Origin: an uncultured Prevotellaceae bacterium
Lineage (GTDB): Bacteria > Bacteroidota > Bacteroidia > Bacteroidales > Bacteroidaceae
DNA length: 38,695 nucleotides
Assembly: GCA_946622085.1 (NCBI GenBank)
Contig: CAMOPD010000003.1
Coordinates: forward strand, 1-38,695
Direction of reading: 5' to 3'
Part shown: piece after piece, positions 4,386-34,074 of the stretch
How positions within the stretch are numbered: the first letter of the stretch is position 1
Layout: every line of letters begins with the position of its first letter
Notes under the pieces: generated by a model
What the model saw: the letters and a program-made list of their open reading frames with translations, nothing else
The model's database searches: none
Told to the model about the DNA's origin: nothing
Position numbers and translations under genes: made by a program

Positions 4386-4814
4386 TTAGCCGATGTTGAT
4401 CTGGCGGGCCACCTTGACCTCCTCCTTCACAATCTTCGGCAGGTTGACGGTGAGCACACCGTCGGCCACGCTGGCTGCAATCTTCTCCTTGTCAACATCC
4501 TCAGGCAGGATGAGCGTCTGCTCGAACTTCGAATAAGAGAACTCGCGGCGCAGATAGCGTGCCTTGCGGTCTTCATCCTTCTTCTCCTGCTTGCTCTCCA
4601 TCTTGATGACAAGATTTCCTTCGTGATTGATGTTCACGTTGAAGTCTTCCTTTTTCATGCCCGGTGCGGCCAGCTCCACGCGGTATTCTTTCTCGTCTTC
4701 AAGCACGTTGATAGCCGGTGCAGTGGCATTGGCCTTCGGCATGAAGTCGGCATTGAACAAATCGTTGAACACTTCTGGTAACCAAGCATTTCTGTGCATT
4801 GTAGGATACATCAT
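4386..4814 (-). CDS. Hsp20/alpha-crystallin family small heat shock protein
   Basis: MMYPTMHRNAWLPEVFNDLFN...YRVELAAPGMKKEDFNVNINHEGNLVIKMESK...GVLTVNLPK; preceded by AGGAGGT. Confidence 0.93.
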   Translation of the reverse strand: MMYPTMHRNAWLPEVFNDLFNADFMPKANATAPAINVLEDEKEYRVELAAPGMKKEDFNVNINHEGNLVIKMESKQEKKDEDRKARYLRREFSYSKFEQTLILPEDVDKEKIAASVADGVLTVNLPKIVKEEVKVARQINIG

Positions 4815-5116
4815 AATCTTTACCTCCTGTTTTTCTTTTTTTATTATTAATTTGTTGTTTTGTTTTTGTTCTTTGCGGGTCTCGGCTCCTCGTTGGGGCT
4901 TCAGCCTTCACCCACACATATTGCAAGTAGTATACCAAACCAGCACAGCACGACAAACTGTCAAACCAGAGCGCCAAAATGTCATATTACGAGCCGCCTT
5001 CCAGACTTGATTACCCCATTCACCTGTCTTTCTTTTTACCTCTTTTCCCCTCTTAACATCTCATTGCGCTGTTTTCGGGTCGAAATCACGCAGCTCTCAA
5101 TGAGTGTTTGGCATGT

Positions 5117-5216
5117 TTGCTGTCTGTTGACTGGAGTCAACGCACCTGTTGACTTAAGTCAACGCACCTGTTGACTGGAGTCAACAGATCTATTGACTTA
5201 AGTCAACAGACAGCAA
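5117..5216 (+). repeat. 100-bp composite palindromic element, copy 1
   Basis: Four TTGACTNNAGTCAA palindromes at 5127, 5149, 5171 and 5193 (22-bp period), bounded by TTGCTGTCTG/CAGACAGCAA. Exact reverse complement of 32708-32807. Confidence 0.97.
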
Positions 5217-5247
5217 TCGGCCTGCTTGCCCATTGACAGCAGCCCGA

Positions 5248-5988
5248 TTACTTCCGATAGTAGGCCTTGGTTTCGCCTGCGAAGCGCAGCAGCAGGGAGT
5301 CTCGCCTAAGGGAGAGAATCTCTGCCGTATCGGAGATGCTCTCTTTGGAGCTGTCGCGCGACTCCTGGGTGAGTATCAGTTTGCCGTTGAAGAGATGCCA
5401 CTCGGTGTAGAACCTTGGCCGCGGATATTGCACGAGGCTTTGCCGGTTGCGCCGGGCGTCGCGAGTGCCGCTTATGAGTGGCTGGGCGGCATGGTTGCGC
5501 TTCAGCGTGAATCCATATTCTCGTGGCACCATGATCTTCCGCATGATGCTGTCGGGAATAGGCGGCAGCGAGTCCTTCATCGCGGAGTCTACGGCACGTC
5601 GCCTCAGCGTGGGCATCACCTGATAGGCCCACGTGCCTTTCAGCCGGTCGATATTGACTACGCACAGCGCCTCATGCCTGTTGTCGGGATTGAAGGCCAC
5701 GGCCAGGTTGTCGCCTATGCGGGGGCGGCCCAGCACGCGGCGTGCCAGCGTGGCCCGCAGGATGTCGATGGTGTCGGGGTCGCCGCCTTCCTCGCTGAGG
5801 AATACCAGTATGGAGTCGGTGCATCCCTCGCAGGCCATCCCGTAGACCATGGAGTCGCCAGGCAGGGCACTTGCGGTGCCTGGAGCGCCGTTTTCCCCGC
5901 CCTGGGGCTTTCTGTCGGCACATGCTGCGGCCAGCATCAAGGCGGCCAGTAGAACGAAAAGATTTCTCACATTGATGATGTTACGCAT
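5248..5988 (-). CDS. Predicted lipoprotein, function unknown, possible lipocalin-like C-terminus
   Basis: MRNIINVRNLFVLLAALMLAAACADRK signal with lipobox-like LAAAC; promoter just upstream. The C-terminal assignment is weak. Confidence 0.7.
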   Translation of the reverse strand: MRNIINVRNLFVLLAALMLAAACADRKPQGGENGAPGTASALPGDSMVYGMACEGCTDSILVFLSEEGGDPDTIDILRATLARRVLGRPRIGDNLAVAFNPDNRHEALCVVNIDRLKGTWAYQVMPTLRRRAVDSAMKDSLPPIPDSIMRKIMVPREYGFTLKRNHAAQPLISGTRDARRNRQSLVQYPRPRFYTEWHLFNGKLILTQESRDSSKESISDTAEILSLRRDSLLLRFAGETKAYYRK

Positions 5989-11646: not shown

Positions 11647-11700
11647 CAAGGCTTTTCGACATCCAGCCCCCCTGCAGATTCGCCACTGCATAGAAACAGC

Positions 11701-11766
11701 GAGCACGCTGCTCGATCGAAGCGAGCACGCCGCTCGCTTGGAGAGAGCACGCCGCTCGATCGACGA
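11701..11766. repeat. Three 22-bp tandem imperfect repeats, each with a GAGC-ACGCY-GCTC hairpin
   Basis: GAGCACGC starts at 11701, 11723 and 11745; intergenic between the lptD-like gene and 11906-14068. Confidence 0.9.
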
Positions 11767-11892
11767 AAGGAAGTAGGACGAGAATGCATGTCATGACTTT
11801 TCATAAACCGATTTCAACCTTTTTGAACCTTTTTCTTTGGTTGAACTCACGTTAATCTTCCATAATCTTTCGTGTTTCACAACAAATTTCCA

Positions 11893-29582: not shown

Positions 29583-32561
29583 CTAATCGATCATCATGGG
29601 GCCGCCGAAGCCTCCGCGCGGACGACCGCCGCCAAAGCCTCCTCCTGGGCGTCCGCCACCAGGCCTGCCACCTCCCCAGCCGCCACGGCCGCCGGGTCCG
29701 CCAGGTCCGCCGAAGCCCTGTCCCTGGCCTTGCTTATGGCGCCCGCCAAAGGAGTTGAGCCGGTAGATGACGTGCAGCATGACGTAGGAGTTGATGGAGT
29801 TGTAGCGCGTTTCGCTGCTCATATCGGCGGTCACCGAATTGCTGATGTTGCTGCGGTTGTGCAGTATGTCGTAGAACTGCAGCGAGAGTGTCAGCGCATT
29901 GCCCTTGAGGAAACTCTGGCTTATCTGCGCGTTCCACACCAGCTCGTTGGTGTTCATGCTCCTGTCGTTGTAGCCGCGCCGGCTCTGGTTGTGCAGGTCG
30001 GTCGAGATGGACGTACCCCAGGGTGCAAAGATGTTGAGTGAGCCTCCGTAGGAGAACATCCACGTGTCGAGATTGTCGACGGCCTGCAGCAGGTTCTTCG
30101 AATGGTTGTAGTTGAACATGCCGTCGGCAGCAATCTCAAACCAGTCCTTGCGGAAGCTTGCCTGCAGACGGTCCATGATCATGTCGGAGCGCGTGGTGTT
30201 CACCACCGACTCCTTGCCCTGCGCCAGATAGTTCACGTTGTTGCTGTGGTTGAGCATGGCAAAGTTGTTCACGTTCCACACGCCGGCCGAATCGATGGAG
30301 AAGTTGTACATCATTCCCAGGGCGGCGTTCCAGTTGCCGTTGATGTTCTCCGGGCGGATGGTTTTCTGGCCCGTATCCCTGTCATAGTAGGTTTTGTTTC
30401 CTATGCTGTTGCGGGTGTTGTTGTAGTTGGCAAAGGTCATGATGCTCTGCTGATGGCTTTGAATATAGTTGTTGTAGCGCAGTTCAAAGCGGTTGGTGAA
30501 CGAAGGCTTCAGTCCCGGATTACCCATTCTGACGCTCATCGGATTGCTGTCGTCCACGATGTCGAGCAGGTCGGTCATCGACGGCTGCGACGTGGTGCCC
30601 CGATACTGTGCGCGCAGTTCGCTCATGGGGTTGAACTTGTAGCGGAAGTCGAGCGTGGGGGTGAGGTTCACCACGTTGCGCGTGGTGTCGGTGTGTATGC
30701 CCAGGTATTCCTGCTTGAAGTTGGTCTTCTGCGGTTGCAGCATGCCACCGATGTTGAGCTGATACTTCGTGTCGATGATGCGCAGCATCAGGTTCACCTC
30801 GTGAATGTAGTTGCTGTATTCAGAGAATCGGCTCAGGTCGTCGTCGAGATAGTTCTGCAGCGGATGGGTGAGCAGGCCGAGGAAGCTGTCCCATCCGCGA
30901 TACTTGAAGCCCAGACCGTCGAAGGCGCTGACGTTTCCGAAGTCGTAGGTAGAACGGTCGCTCTTGTTGTAGTTGTAGCGGAAGCGATAGCTCAGCTGCA
31001 GGAATCCGCCCTTGAAGATGGGCTCGCTGTAGGTGGTCAGCAGTGAGTAGCTCCAGGTCTTGGTGGGCGTGACGCTGTAGCGGTTGGTGTAGAACGTGGA
31101 GTCGTTGCCAAAGCGGTCTTGCTGCTGATAGAGCGTGGTGTGGGCCGACGAGAGGTTCTTGCCGTCGGTGTCGCTATAGCTGAAGTCGCCGCGCAGGGTG
31201 ACGTTGCGCCCCTTCTTGCCCAGCTTGCGGTTGTATTGCAGCATGGCTCCCGCCGACTTTCCGTCGCTGTAGCTGATGGAGCCGTTGTCGGCATTGTTCA
31301 CGAGCACGCCTTTCTCCTTGAGCGTGGTGAGCTGGCCCAGCGGGTCGTCTACGTAGAGATAGGGATTGTCGTTGAAGGTGGCCGAGGTGGACGTGTTGGT
31401 GCCGTCGCTCTTGGTGATGCGGAAGTTGGGTCGGAACATCACGTTCGTCATCGAGTCGGGCTTCCACTCCAGTCGCATCTGGGCGTTGAAGTTGGTGTTG
31501 CGACTGTTCTGCTGGGTGATGCTATTCTCATAGGAGACGTTGTTCAGATTGAATCTGCTCACCGACTGTATGGTGTGGGTGTCGTTGTCGCGTCGGTTCC
31601 AGCGCACGCTTCCGTCAATCTCCAGCTTGTCGGAGAGATGGTTGTAGTTCAGGGCGCCCATTTTGTGGGTGTTCAGTCCTTGCTGGCCGCCGAATCGTCC
31701 GCCGCCACCGCCGCCGGGGAATCCCTGGTTGCCCGTGTTGTTGGCATTGATGAAGGCCATGTAGCGGTCGCTGTCGGTGAAATAAGAGCCCATCAGTCTC
31801 AGGGCGTAGCGGTCGTGCGTGCCTATGCCGATGTCGTTGTTGGTGAATTTTCCGCGGTTCATGCCGGGCTTGATGCCGAAGTCGAGCACGGTCTCCTCCT
31901 CGCCGTCGTCAATGCCGGTGATGCGTGCCAGGTCGCTTTTCTCCTGATACGAGCGTATGTTGTTCACAATGTCAACGGGCAGATTCTTCAGCGCCGTCTC
32001 GGTGTCGCCGGTCATGAATTCCTTGCCGTCAACCTTGATTTTCTTCACTTCGCGGCCGTTGATGGTGATTTTCCCGTCGTCGCTCACCTGCGCTCCGGGG
32101 AGCTTCTTCACCAGCTCTTCCACCACCGAGCCTTCGGGTGTGCGATAGGCGGCTGCATTATATACAAAGGTGTCGGCCTTCACCGTCACCTTGGCGGCCG
32201 TTCCCGTGGCGGTGACGCCTTTCAGCATGATGGCGTCGGGCTGCATCGTCAGCGTGCCCATGCTGACATCCTTGCCGGCCGACACGGTGACACTTTTCAC
32301 CAGGTTCTTATATCCCACGCTGGTCATCTTCAGCAGATAGCGGCCTGTGGCGGGAGCTTCGAGCGAGAACACACCGTCTTCGTTGGACAATGCACCAACG
32401 ACGAAGGTGCTGTCGGTCTTCAACAACTGCACCGTCACCTGCATAACAGCTTCTTTCGTGTCATGATCTACTATTTTTCCAGAAATCTTTCTACCTTGAG
32501 CATGTGTCAACACCGACACAAACAAAAGTAACGCAAGCAAAATCCATTTATTAGAGCGCAT
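29583..32561 (-). CDS. TonB-dependent-receptor-like outer membrane protein with carboxypeptidase-regulatory-like N-terminal domain and Gly-rich C-terminal tail
   Basis: Signal MRSNKWILLALLLFVSVLTHAQ; ISGKIVDHDTKEAVMQVTVQLLKTD; plug-like GSVVEELVKKLPGAQVSDDGKITINGREVKKIKVDGKEFMTGD; long beta-barrel. Start moved from 32753 to 32561 because the extension reads through the repeat. Confidence 0.9.
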   Translation of the reverse strand: MRSNKWILLALLLFVSVLTHAQGRKISGKIVDHDTKEAVMQVTVQLLKTDSTFVVGALSNEDGVFSLEAPATGRYLLKMTSVGYKNLVKSVTVSAGKDVSMGTLTMQPDAIMLKGVTATGTAAKVTVKADTFVYNAAAYRTPEGSVVEELVKKLPGAQVSDDGKITINGREVKKIKVDGKEFMTGDTETALKNLPVDIVNNIRSYQEKSDLARITGIDDGEEETVLDFGIKPGMNRGKFTNNDIGIGTHDRYALRLMGSYFTDSDRYMAFINANNTGNQGFPGGGGGGRFGGQQGLNTHKMGALNYNHLSDKLEIDGSVRWNRRDNDTHTIQSVSRFNLNNVSYENSITQQNSRNTNFNAQMRLEWKPDSMTNVMFRPNFRITKSDGTNTSTSATFNDNPYLYVDDPLGQLTTLKEKGVLVNNADNGSISYSDGKSAGAMLQYNRKLGKKGRNVTLRGDFSYSDTDGKNLSSAHTTLYQQQDRFGNDSTFYTNRYSVTPTKTWSYSLLTTYSEPIFKGGFLQLSYRFRYNYNKSDRSTYDFGNVSAFDGLGFKYRGWDSFLGLLTHPLQNYLDDDLSRFSEYSNYIHEVNLMLRIIDTKYQLNIGGMLQPQKTNFKQEYLGIHTDTTRNVVNLTPTLDFRYKFNPMSELRAQYRGTTSQPSMTDLLDIVDDSNPMSVRMGNPGLKPSFTNRFELRYNNYIQSHQQSIMTFANYNNTRNSIGNKTYYDRDTGQKTIRPENINGNWNAALGMMYNFSIDSAGVWNVNNFAMLNHSNNVNYLAQGKESVVNTTRSDMIMDRLQASFRKDWFEIAADGMFNYNHSKNLLQAVDNLDTWMFSYGGSLNIFAPWGTSISTDLHNQSRRGYNDRSMNTNELVWNAQISQSFLKGNALTLSLQFYDILHNRSNISNSVTADMSSETRYNSINSYVMLHVIYRLNSFGGRHKQGQGQGFGGPGGPGGRGGWGGGRPGGGRPGGGFGGGRPRGGFGGPMMID

Positions 32562-32707
32562 AGAATGAATAAAAATAAATAATTGTGATTGTATATTTTC
32601 TCTTTTAGACGCTCTGAGTCCCACATGGTTTAACGGGGCAAGGAAAAAAATCGGGCGCCAGGGGGAGAACCGCCGAATGACGTGCCCGCAACCCGTAATC
32701 ACGCCAC

Positions 32708-32807
32708 TTGCTGTCTGTTGACTTAAGTCAATAGATCTGTTGACTCCAGTCAACAGGTGCGTTGACTTAAGTCAACAGGTGCGTTGACTCCAGTCAACAG
32801 ACAGCAA
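32708..32807 (-). repeat. 100-bp composite palindromic element, copy 2 (inverted relative to copy 1)
   Basis: Exact reverse complement of 5117-5216 over 100 bp; palindromes at 32718, 32740, 32762 and 32784. Confidence 0.97.
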
Positions 32808-33018: not shown

Positions 33019-34074
33019 ATGAGTATGGAACAGAGAATTATTATTTCAAAAAACTTGCAACAGGAATTGGCCACGGCCATTTCCGAATGCGAGCACGACC
33101 GCTTGTTTGTGCTCGTAGACGAGACCACGCGCCAGGCGTGCTGGCCCCTGCTACGGCATTTCCTCTGTCTGAAGACCGCTGAACTCATCACCATCGGTGC
33201 TTCCGACACCAACAAGACGCTGCCAACCACAGCCCACGTGTGGCAGTCGCTCAGCCAAGGAGGAGCCACACGCCACTCGCTGCTCATCAATCTGGGCGGC
33301 GGCATGGTGACCGACCTGGGCGGTTTCGCGGCTTCTACGTTCAAGCGCGGCATCGACTTCATCAACATTCCCACCACGCTGCTGGCCATGGTCGACGCGA
33401 GTGTGGGGGGAAAAACCGGCATCAACTTCGAGGGACTGAAAAACGAAATCGGCGTGTTCAGCGAGCCCCGCTTCGTCATTCTCAGCACGCAGTTCCTGCA
33501 GACTCTCGACCATGAGAACCTCTGTTCAGGCTATGCCGAGATGCTGAAGCACGGACTGATAAGCAACGACACCATGTGGGCCGAGCTGCTCAACTTCAAC
33601 CTGGCCGAGCCCCACTTCGGCCAACTGCAGCAGATGGTGGCCGACTCAGTGAAAGTGAAGGAAAACATCGTGGAAGCCGACCCCCGCGAGAAGGGCATCA
33701 GAAAGGCACTCAACCTGGGCCATACCTTCGGACACGCCTTCGAGTCGATGGCCATGCGCCAGGGCCAGCCCGTGCTCCACGGCTATGCCGTGGCCTGGGG
33801 AATAGTATGCGAACTCTTTCTCAGTGCTGTCAAGACGGCTTTCCCCACTCAGCGCATGCGGCAGACCGTGGGATTCATCCGCCAGCACTATGGCCAACCG
33901 AACATCACGTGCGACGACTATCCCGAACTGCTTGAACTGATGCGCCACGACAAGAAGAACATCGGCAACAGCATCAACTTCACCCTGCTGGGCGATATTG
34001 GCGACATACGCATCAACCAGACAGCCACCGAAGAGGAAATAAAGGAAGCCCTCGACTTCATTCGCGAGGGATAA
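33019..34074 (+). CDS. aroB: 3-dehydroquinate synthase
   Basis: LINLGGGMVTDLGGFAASTFKRGIDFINIPTTLLAMVDASVGGKTGINFEGLKNEIGVF...LNLGHTFGHAFE. Start at MSMEQ. Confidence 0.96.
   Translation: MSMEQRIIISKNLQQELATAISECEHDRLFVLVDETTRQACWPLLRHFLCLKTAELITIGASDTNKTLPTTAHVWQSLSQGGATRHSLLINLGGGMVTDLGGFAASTFKRGIDFINIPTTLLAMVDASVGGKTGINFEGLKNEIGVFSEPRFVILSTQFLQTLDHENLCSGYAEMLKHGLISNDTMWAELLNFNLAEPHFGQLQQMVADSVKVKENIVEADPREKGIRKALNLGHTFGHAFESMAMRQGQPVLHGYAVAWGIVCELFLSAVKTAFPTQRMRQTVGFIRQHYGQPNITCDDYPELLELMRHDKKNIGNSINFTLLGDIGDIRINQTATEEEIKEALDFIREG

Follow-up and report, generated by a model that had tools for sequence, protein, structure and literature searches.

HU-like proteins are usually regarded as binding DNA with little sequence preference. 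Sequence-specific proteins acting on dispersed palindromic chromosomal sites are exemplified by ParB-parS and MatP-matS, which are conserved over wide taxa and whose sites do not form phased arrays, and with RAYTs a cognate gene is accompanied by adjoining repeats. The REP/BIME elements associated with RAYTs are species-specific palindromic repeats present in many intergenic copies (PMC2817692, PMC3733652). The BrickBuilt MITE of Porphyromonas gingivalis is a multicopy, species-restricted and always intergenic element composed of 23-nt tandem units without spacers, with a defined leader, a tail and IS5-like terminal repeats; its description also mentions 22-nt tandem repeats in P. gingivalis strain W83 and never uses the word palindrome (PMC4596501).

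Two inverted copies of a phased palindrome array

The window, i.e. the whole stretch of 38,695 nucleotides analysed, comes from the draft genome of an uncultured Prevotellaceae bacterium (G000; 2.13 Mb, 222 contigs, 73% complete). The initial annotation placed four TTGACTnnAGTCAA palindromes of 14 bp, separated by 8-bp spacers and therefore recurring every 22 bp, in each of two places. All eight sites were recovered at their coordinates with zero mismatches, and the spacers and the step agreed in both copies; none of 100 dinucleotide-preserving shuffles gave eight TTGACTnnAGTCAA matches, even with up to two mismatches tolerated. Over a 98-bp core that starts with TGCTGTCTG and ends with CAGACAGCA, the two copies are exact reverse complements of each other. 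The arrays and their surroundings in the window are:

4386-4814, minus strand: Hsp20 gene (PF00011), starting ~300 bp away from copy 1
5074-5117, plus strand: left flank of copy 1, weakly conserved among copies and itself in 22-bp register
5118-5215, plus strand: copy 1, 98-bp core with four TTGACTnnAGTCAA palindromes at 5127, 5149, 5171 and 5193 (centres GG, TA, GG, TA)
5216-5260, plus strand: right flank of copy 1, weakly conserved, overlapping the 3' end of the 5248-5988 gene
5248-5988, minus strand: gene for a lipocalin-like protein (PF12702), copy 1 lying 33 bp beyond its stop
11666-11795, plus strand: third 22-bp-phased array, diverged, of GCGAGCACGCCGCTCG units, just after an LptD-like gene
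29583-32570, minus strand: gene for an outer-membrane beta-barrel protein (PF14905), copy 2 lying in the divergent intergenic region
32709-32806, minus strand: copy 2, identical 98-bp core, inverted, with sites at 32718, 32740, 32762 and 32784
33019-34074, plus strand: aroB, 3-dehydroquinate synthase (PF01761, PF24621), on the opposite side of copy 2

Whole or partial, the 98-bp core occurs at 32 distinct places in G000, the window arrays being two of them. Six full copies are 100% identical despite differing flanks, and identity across a dozen copies is 97-100% in the core, again with differing flanks. Approximately 14 of the 32 places are at a contig end or within about 20 bp of one, indicating that the repeat also breaks the assembly. 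Contigs ending inside an array include C36, C51, C52, C85, C105, C112, C178 and C184, among others.

The alternation of GG and TA centres pointed out initially is present in both window copies but does not hold as a rule, because several G000 copies have the order GG GG TA TA (L028 and L031; L030, L032 and L033 on the other strand). Judging from the sequences compared, alternating centres are not essential, and what is conserved is GACTnnAGTC together with the 22-bp step. In every full copy printed, the centres of sites 1 and 4 are unlike, as are those of sites 2 and 3, so that the 98-bp core is never one perfect palindrome; this imperfect overall symmetry may protect it from palindrome-cutting repair.

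The GCGAGCACGCCGCTCG-unit array of the window is related to GTAAGCACGCCACTTACG elements, with around 40 matches in the genome, and this second family lies within a conserved element ~330 bp long. The ~330-bp elements of G000 at L324-L353 carry a TTTTGTAAAATAATTTCACAA-like sequence on either side, directly oriented, plus a CTGAAAATCAG palindrome. A CRISPR array is not supported, as the repeats are non-identical, the 8-12 bp spacers are common to the copies, and individual units may be inverted or of another type without loss of register.

Arrays occur across the genus with different motifs

A collection scan for three GACTnnAGTC at 22-bp spacing returned at least 105 stretches, mostly from Prevotella, Xylanibacter and other Bacteroidaceae; among the matches listed was one Verrucomicrobia MAG, with GACTnnAGTC arrays of up to 8 units. 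In relatives, the GACTnnAGTC core is kept and the outer TT..AA is not, while centre dinucleotides and outer arms vary freely, and the 22-bp periodicity extends to the flanks beyond the palindromes (0.37-0.38 vs ~0.25 at other lags). Likewise, three orthologous sets of arrays from different species retain GACT..AGTC and the spacing, with changes in centres, spacers and unit number. Conservation of the 22-bp spacing, the check proposed in the initial annotation, was thus found in other copies, in orthologous arrays and, as described below, genus-wide. Within orthologous arrays, an inter-palindrome spacer is apparently inverted in L114 (5943-6423) with respect to L081 (2480-2960) and L126 (1753-2233).

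Because GACTnnAGTC was widespread with free centres and arms, a motif-free lag scan was undertaken, using 88-bp windows with a self-match of at least 56% at lags 14 to 59. The DNA scanned was 400 kb of G141, 400 kb of G016, in which GACT arrays had not been detected, and, with the window included, 357 kb of the source genome. Lag 22 yielded 16, 14 and 17 arrays, respectively, and its double, lag 44, yielded 4, 6 and 3; the other lags gave 0 to 3 windows each in the three genomes. The array words differed by genome, being CCAGCCCCTGG in G141, TTGACGCAA/TTACACNGTGA in G016, and TTGACTnnAGTCAA plus GTAAGCACGCCACTTACG in the source genome. Ten of 20 further genomes of the genus (≤20 kb each) also contained arrays, 13 in all and nearly all with a different motif, and none was found in 273 kb sampled from 20 genomes belonging to other families of the order; N-runs were removed by eye in both of these scans. 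Almost every species has a palindromic motif of its own, at a 22-bp step.

The arrays are intergenic, with two of 55 inside predicted genes, and occupy codirectional (35), divergent (9) or convergent (5) settings. A role as terminators was rejected, since arrays occur in all three types of region. Dyad axes recur every 11 bp in the arrays, which is partly a consequence of the 22-bp periodicity itself. Searches of viral contigs and of plasmids gave no match, and lone 22-bp repeats in one Chloroflexi and one Thiotrichaceae genome were discounted as possibly chance tandem repeats.

Arrays are linked to genes for HU-winged-helix proteins

Clustering of the genes neighbouring arrays returned housekeeping genes and one HU-like cluster, which, together with a follow-up search, defined the gene class beside the arrays as HU-HIG, 'HU domain fused to wHTH' (PF18291); the linked proteins score 40.7-56.7 bits vs a gathering score of 26.2. 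In all ten loci with both features, including that of the source genome, a GACT array is directly 3' of the HU-HIG gene; in the source genome, this gene occupies positions 141-797 of contig C184, on the minus strand, with the array at the contig start. Xylanibacter brevis ATCC 19188, a cultured strain, carries GACTnnAGTC arrays next to its HU-winged-helix gene (locus L169). A strong homologue was present in seven GACT-array genomes (G000, G129, G134, G141, G186, G191 and G206; E 1e-41 to 1e-109) and absent from all 14 array-negative genomes in the homologue search.

Genus-wide, 31 of 49 HU-winged-helix loci had a 22-bp array within 600 bp, vs 1 of 58 control loci (p = 3.6e-13), and distant HU-HIG paralogues likewise had 22-bp arrays, with other motifs. 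Several of the remaining loci had arrays of 23 bp (L455, L458 and L414) or 21 bp (L468, L470, L473 and L475) beside the gene, and the four with 21 bp appear to form a single protein clade in which the array precedes the gene. Among the 28 loci measured, the array was 3' of the gene in 18 (at 4-185 bp) and 5' in 10 (at 60-434 bp). This gene class is rare in other families: among the other genomes sampled from the order, 3 of 77 contain it, which matches the lack of arrays in the samples of those families. Autoregulation or co-inheritance alone could also produce a linkage of genes and arrays.

The correspondence has exceptions. No strong homologue was found in G018, G035 and G160, whose GACT-type arrays are weaker; G031 and G033 have a strong homologue and no GACT array next to the gene; and the array adjoining the gene of G134 is GACCnnGGTC instead of GACTnnAGTC. 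No HU-winged-helix gene was found in G016 despite its many arrays, leaving its dominant motif without a candidate partner, nor was a partner gene of the second array family found in G000, a draft that is 73% complete. Two arrays of the dominant G016 motif (L437, 2034-2146 and 2760-2921) are downstream of a canonical 95-aa HU gene. In the Verrucomicrobia MAG (UBA3214), GCGACTCCAGTCGC forms numerous 22-bp-phased arrays of 5 to 8 units (L080, L085, L095, L138, L146 and others), and no HU-HIG partner was seen for them in the stretches fetched. Shorter HU-HIG genes (~150 aa) show little array linkage. Three G141 loci (L433, L436 and L442) contain similar HU-HIG genes of ~160 aa and share TATATAATATTATATA repeats at a distance of a few hundred bases, apparently as an element that has recently become multicopy.

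In the same 28 measured loci, selected without regard to motif, motif similarity tracked protein similarity (r = 0.45, p = 2e-4), a correlation that can arise from shared descent, and the array consensus was palindromic (0.60 vs 0.464 ± 0.010 for shuffled columns). An AlphaFold2 model of the linked protein predicts an HU-like fold followed by a C-terminal winged helix (mean pLDDT 82.5). Its best PDB matches with Foldseek were 4fmr, a putative DNA-binding protein of Bacteroides vulgatus, and then HU/IHF, plus the winged-helix repressor PagR.

A proposed role as operator arrays

We observed directly the arrays, their periodicity, the conservation of core and spacing, the gene linkage and the relation between protein and motif. 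From these we infer that HU-HIG proteins bind the arrays, cooperate, bend DNA and affect genes, and we consider it likely that the arrays are operator arrays for cooperative, sequence-specific HU-winged-helix (HU-HIG, PF18291) proteins. The candidate coat of the arrays is, probably, an HU protein with an extra DNA-reading domain. One dimer of such a protein (~200-250 aa, HU/IHF superfamily) would read one palindrome through its winged helices, and the HU parts would touch neighbouring dimers and bend the DNA, generating a phased nucleoprotein array. A 22-bp step would set adjacent dimers on nearly the same DNA face, and we propose that four or five of them could bind cooperatively for this reason; given the HU fold, some 90-110 bp of DNA would then probably be bent or wrapped. 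Each protein would have its own motif, often with an array copy beside its own gene, 3' in some clades and 5' in others, and the further copies across intergenic DNA would be regulatory or chromosome-organising sites. Because core copies are more alike than their flanks, homogenisation or movement of the core alone is likely. The suggestion of a cooperative regulator or nucleoid-protein array with sites on the same face, made in the initial annotation, is supported by the conserved 22-bp spacing and by a candidate protein of nucleoid type, but not in its identification of the regulator as CRP/FNR.

A more tentative reading is that the genus contains orthogonal, fast-evolving pairs, each formed by an HU-winged-helix protein and an adjoining array of its own motif, phased at 21 to 23 bp, which would seed copies over the chromosome; this would amount to sequence-specific chromatin whose specificity shifts by species. 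If true, sequence-specific bacterial chromatin would become directly testable, with a set of HU-winged-helix proteins and dozens of cognate phased arrays per genome, and natural orthogonal pairs of protein and site would become available in a genus that is dominant in gut and rumen. It would also raise the question of how the specificities of protein and site change together, and would explain many repeat-induced assembly breaks.

Alternative explanations

The arrays might instead be the bodies of non-autonomous, MITE-like mobile elements, as BrickBuilt, the nearest described element (PMC4596501), with the HU-type gene as a passenger or a preferred site. The many intergenic copies with nearly identical cores and differing flanks agree with this, as does the location of the second family inside a conserved ~330-bp repeat with its ~40 matches. 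Terminal inverted repeats are also present, given that the core ends are TGCTGTCTG and CAGACAGCA, although these are equally expected of an array of symmetric sites. However, no target-site duplication was seen on inspection of the copies by eye, nor was a transposase remnant seen. The best aroB relatives for a comparison of filled and empty sites were 74-77% identical at the protein level. Flanks diverge more than the core, unlike in a transposed unit, orthologous sites keep both core and spacing, and the linkage is strong and to a single gene class with a matching motif, which together make a MITE-like origin unlikely. Species-specific palindromes in many intergenic copies would also suit REP/BIME elements of a RAYT-type Y1 transposase. 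Nevertheless, Y1_Tnp was not found in five of ten array genomes (G000, G129, G186, G206 and G035, several of them incomplete drafts, G000 included) and is equally frequent in genomes without the GACTnnAGTC motif, so we find this origin hardly plausible.

On paper, TTGAC-N4-GTCAA looks like an FNR box, and the sites were initially compared with those of CRP/FNR-type regulators. The part resembling such boxes is, however, the one that is not conserved, because relatives keep GACTnnAGTC alone; moreover, unrelated palindromes occur at the same step in other species and the gene linked to the arrays encodes HU-HIG, leaving this attribution with scarcely any credibility. Structured RNA or single-strand hairpins, acting as RNA or as cruciforms, had been put forward as well, and an array can indeed be folded into one long hairpin, with 22 bp corresponding to two turns of an A-form helix. 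A hairpin function would be expected to make half-sites covary. In G141, however, the Y and R positions of the half-sites were independent (26, 9, 9, 5; p = 0.50). The pairs beside GACTnnAGTC (TG 80, CA 74, TA 69, CG 45) were more often non-complementary (T/G + C/A, 154) than complementary (T/A + C/G, 114). One position further out, complementary pairs were in excess (0.55 vs 0.34 expected), indicating that dyad symmetry is kept there in many units. The arrays, which occur in all gene orientations, showed no covariation of inner fold-backs, and Rfam gave no match in the window and, in seven 20-kb loci with arrays, none beyond tRNA and tmRNA. A function as RNA or cruciform is therefore very improbable; on balance, the half-site pattern is the one expected of a protein that binds double-stranded DNA as a dimer at degenerate half-sites.

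Comparison with known systems

No description of such arrays or of HU-HIG targets was found in the open-licence literature, subscription journals being outside the scope of the search, and the HU-HIG family descriptions consulted do not mention DNA target arrays. The arrays resemble BrickBuilt in their similar tandem unit length, intergenic location, multiple copies, restriction to species and occurrence in Bacteroidales, and the 23-nt period of BrickBuilt is inside the 21-23 bp range of the arrays linked to HU-winged-helix genes. What sets the present arrays apart from BrickBuilt as described is that each unit holds a palindrome, that the motif changes with the species and that they are linked to HU-HIG. 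With ParB-parS and MatP-matS they share dispersed palindromic sites and a sequence-specific protein, here a candidate, but differ from these systems in being 22-bp-phased and in having a motif per species. The likeness to REP/RAYT lies in species-specific intergenic palindromes and in a gene with adjoining repeats, whereas the gene linked here does not encode a transposase, the phasing is fixed at 22 bp and Y1 transposase is uncorrelated. We assign the arrays to no existing repeat family, and the linked protein is, by test, a member of the HU-HIG family (PF18291; e.g. BVU_2165, PDB 4fmr), with 4fmr as its best structural match.
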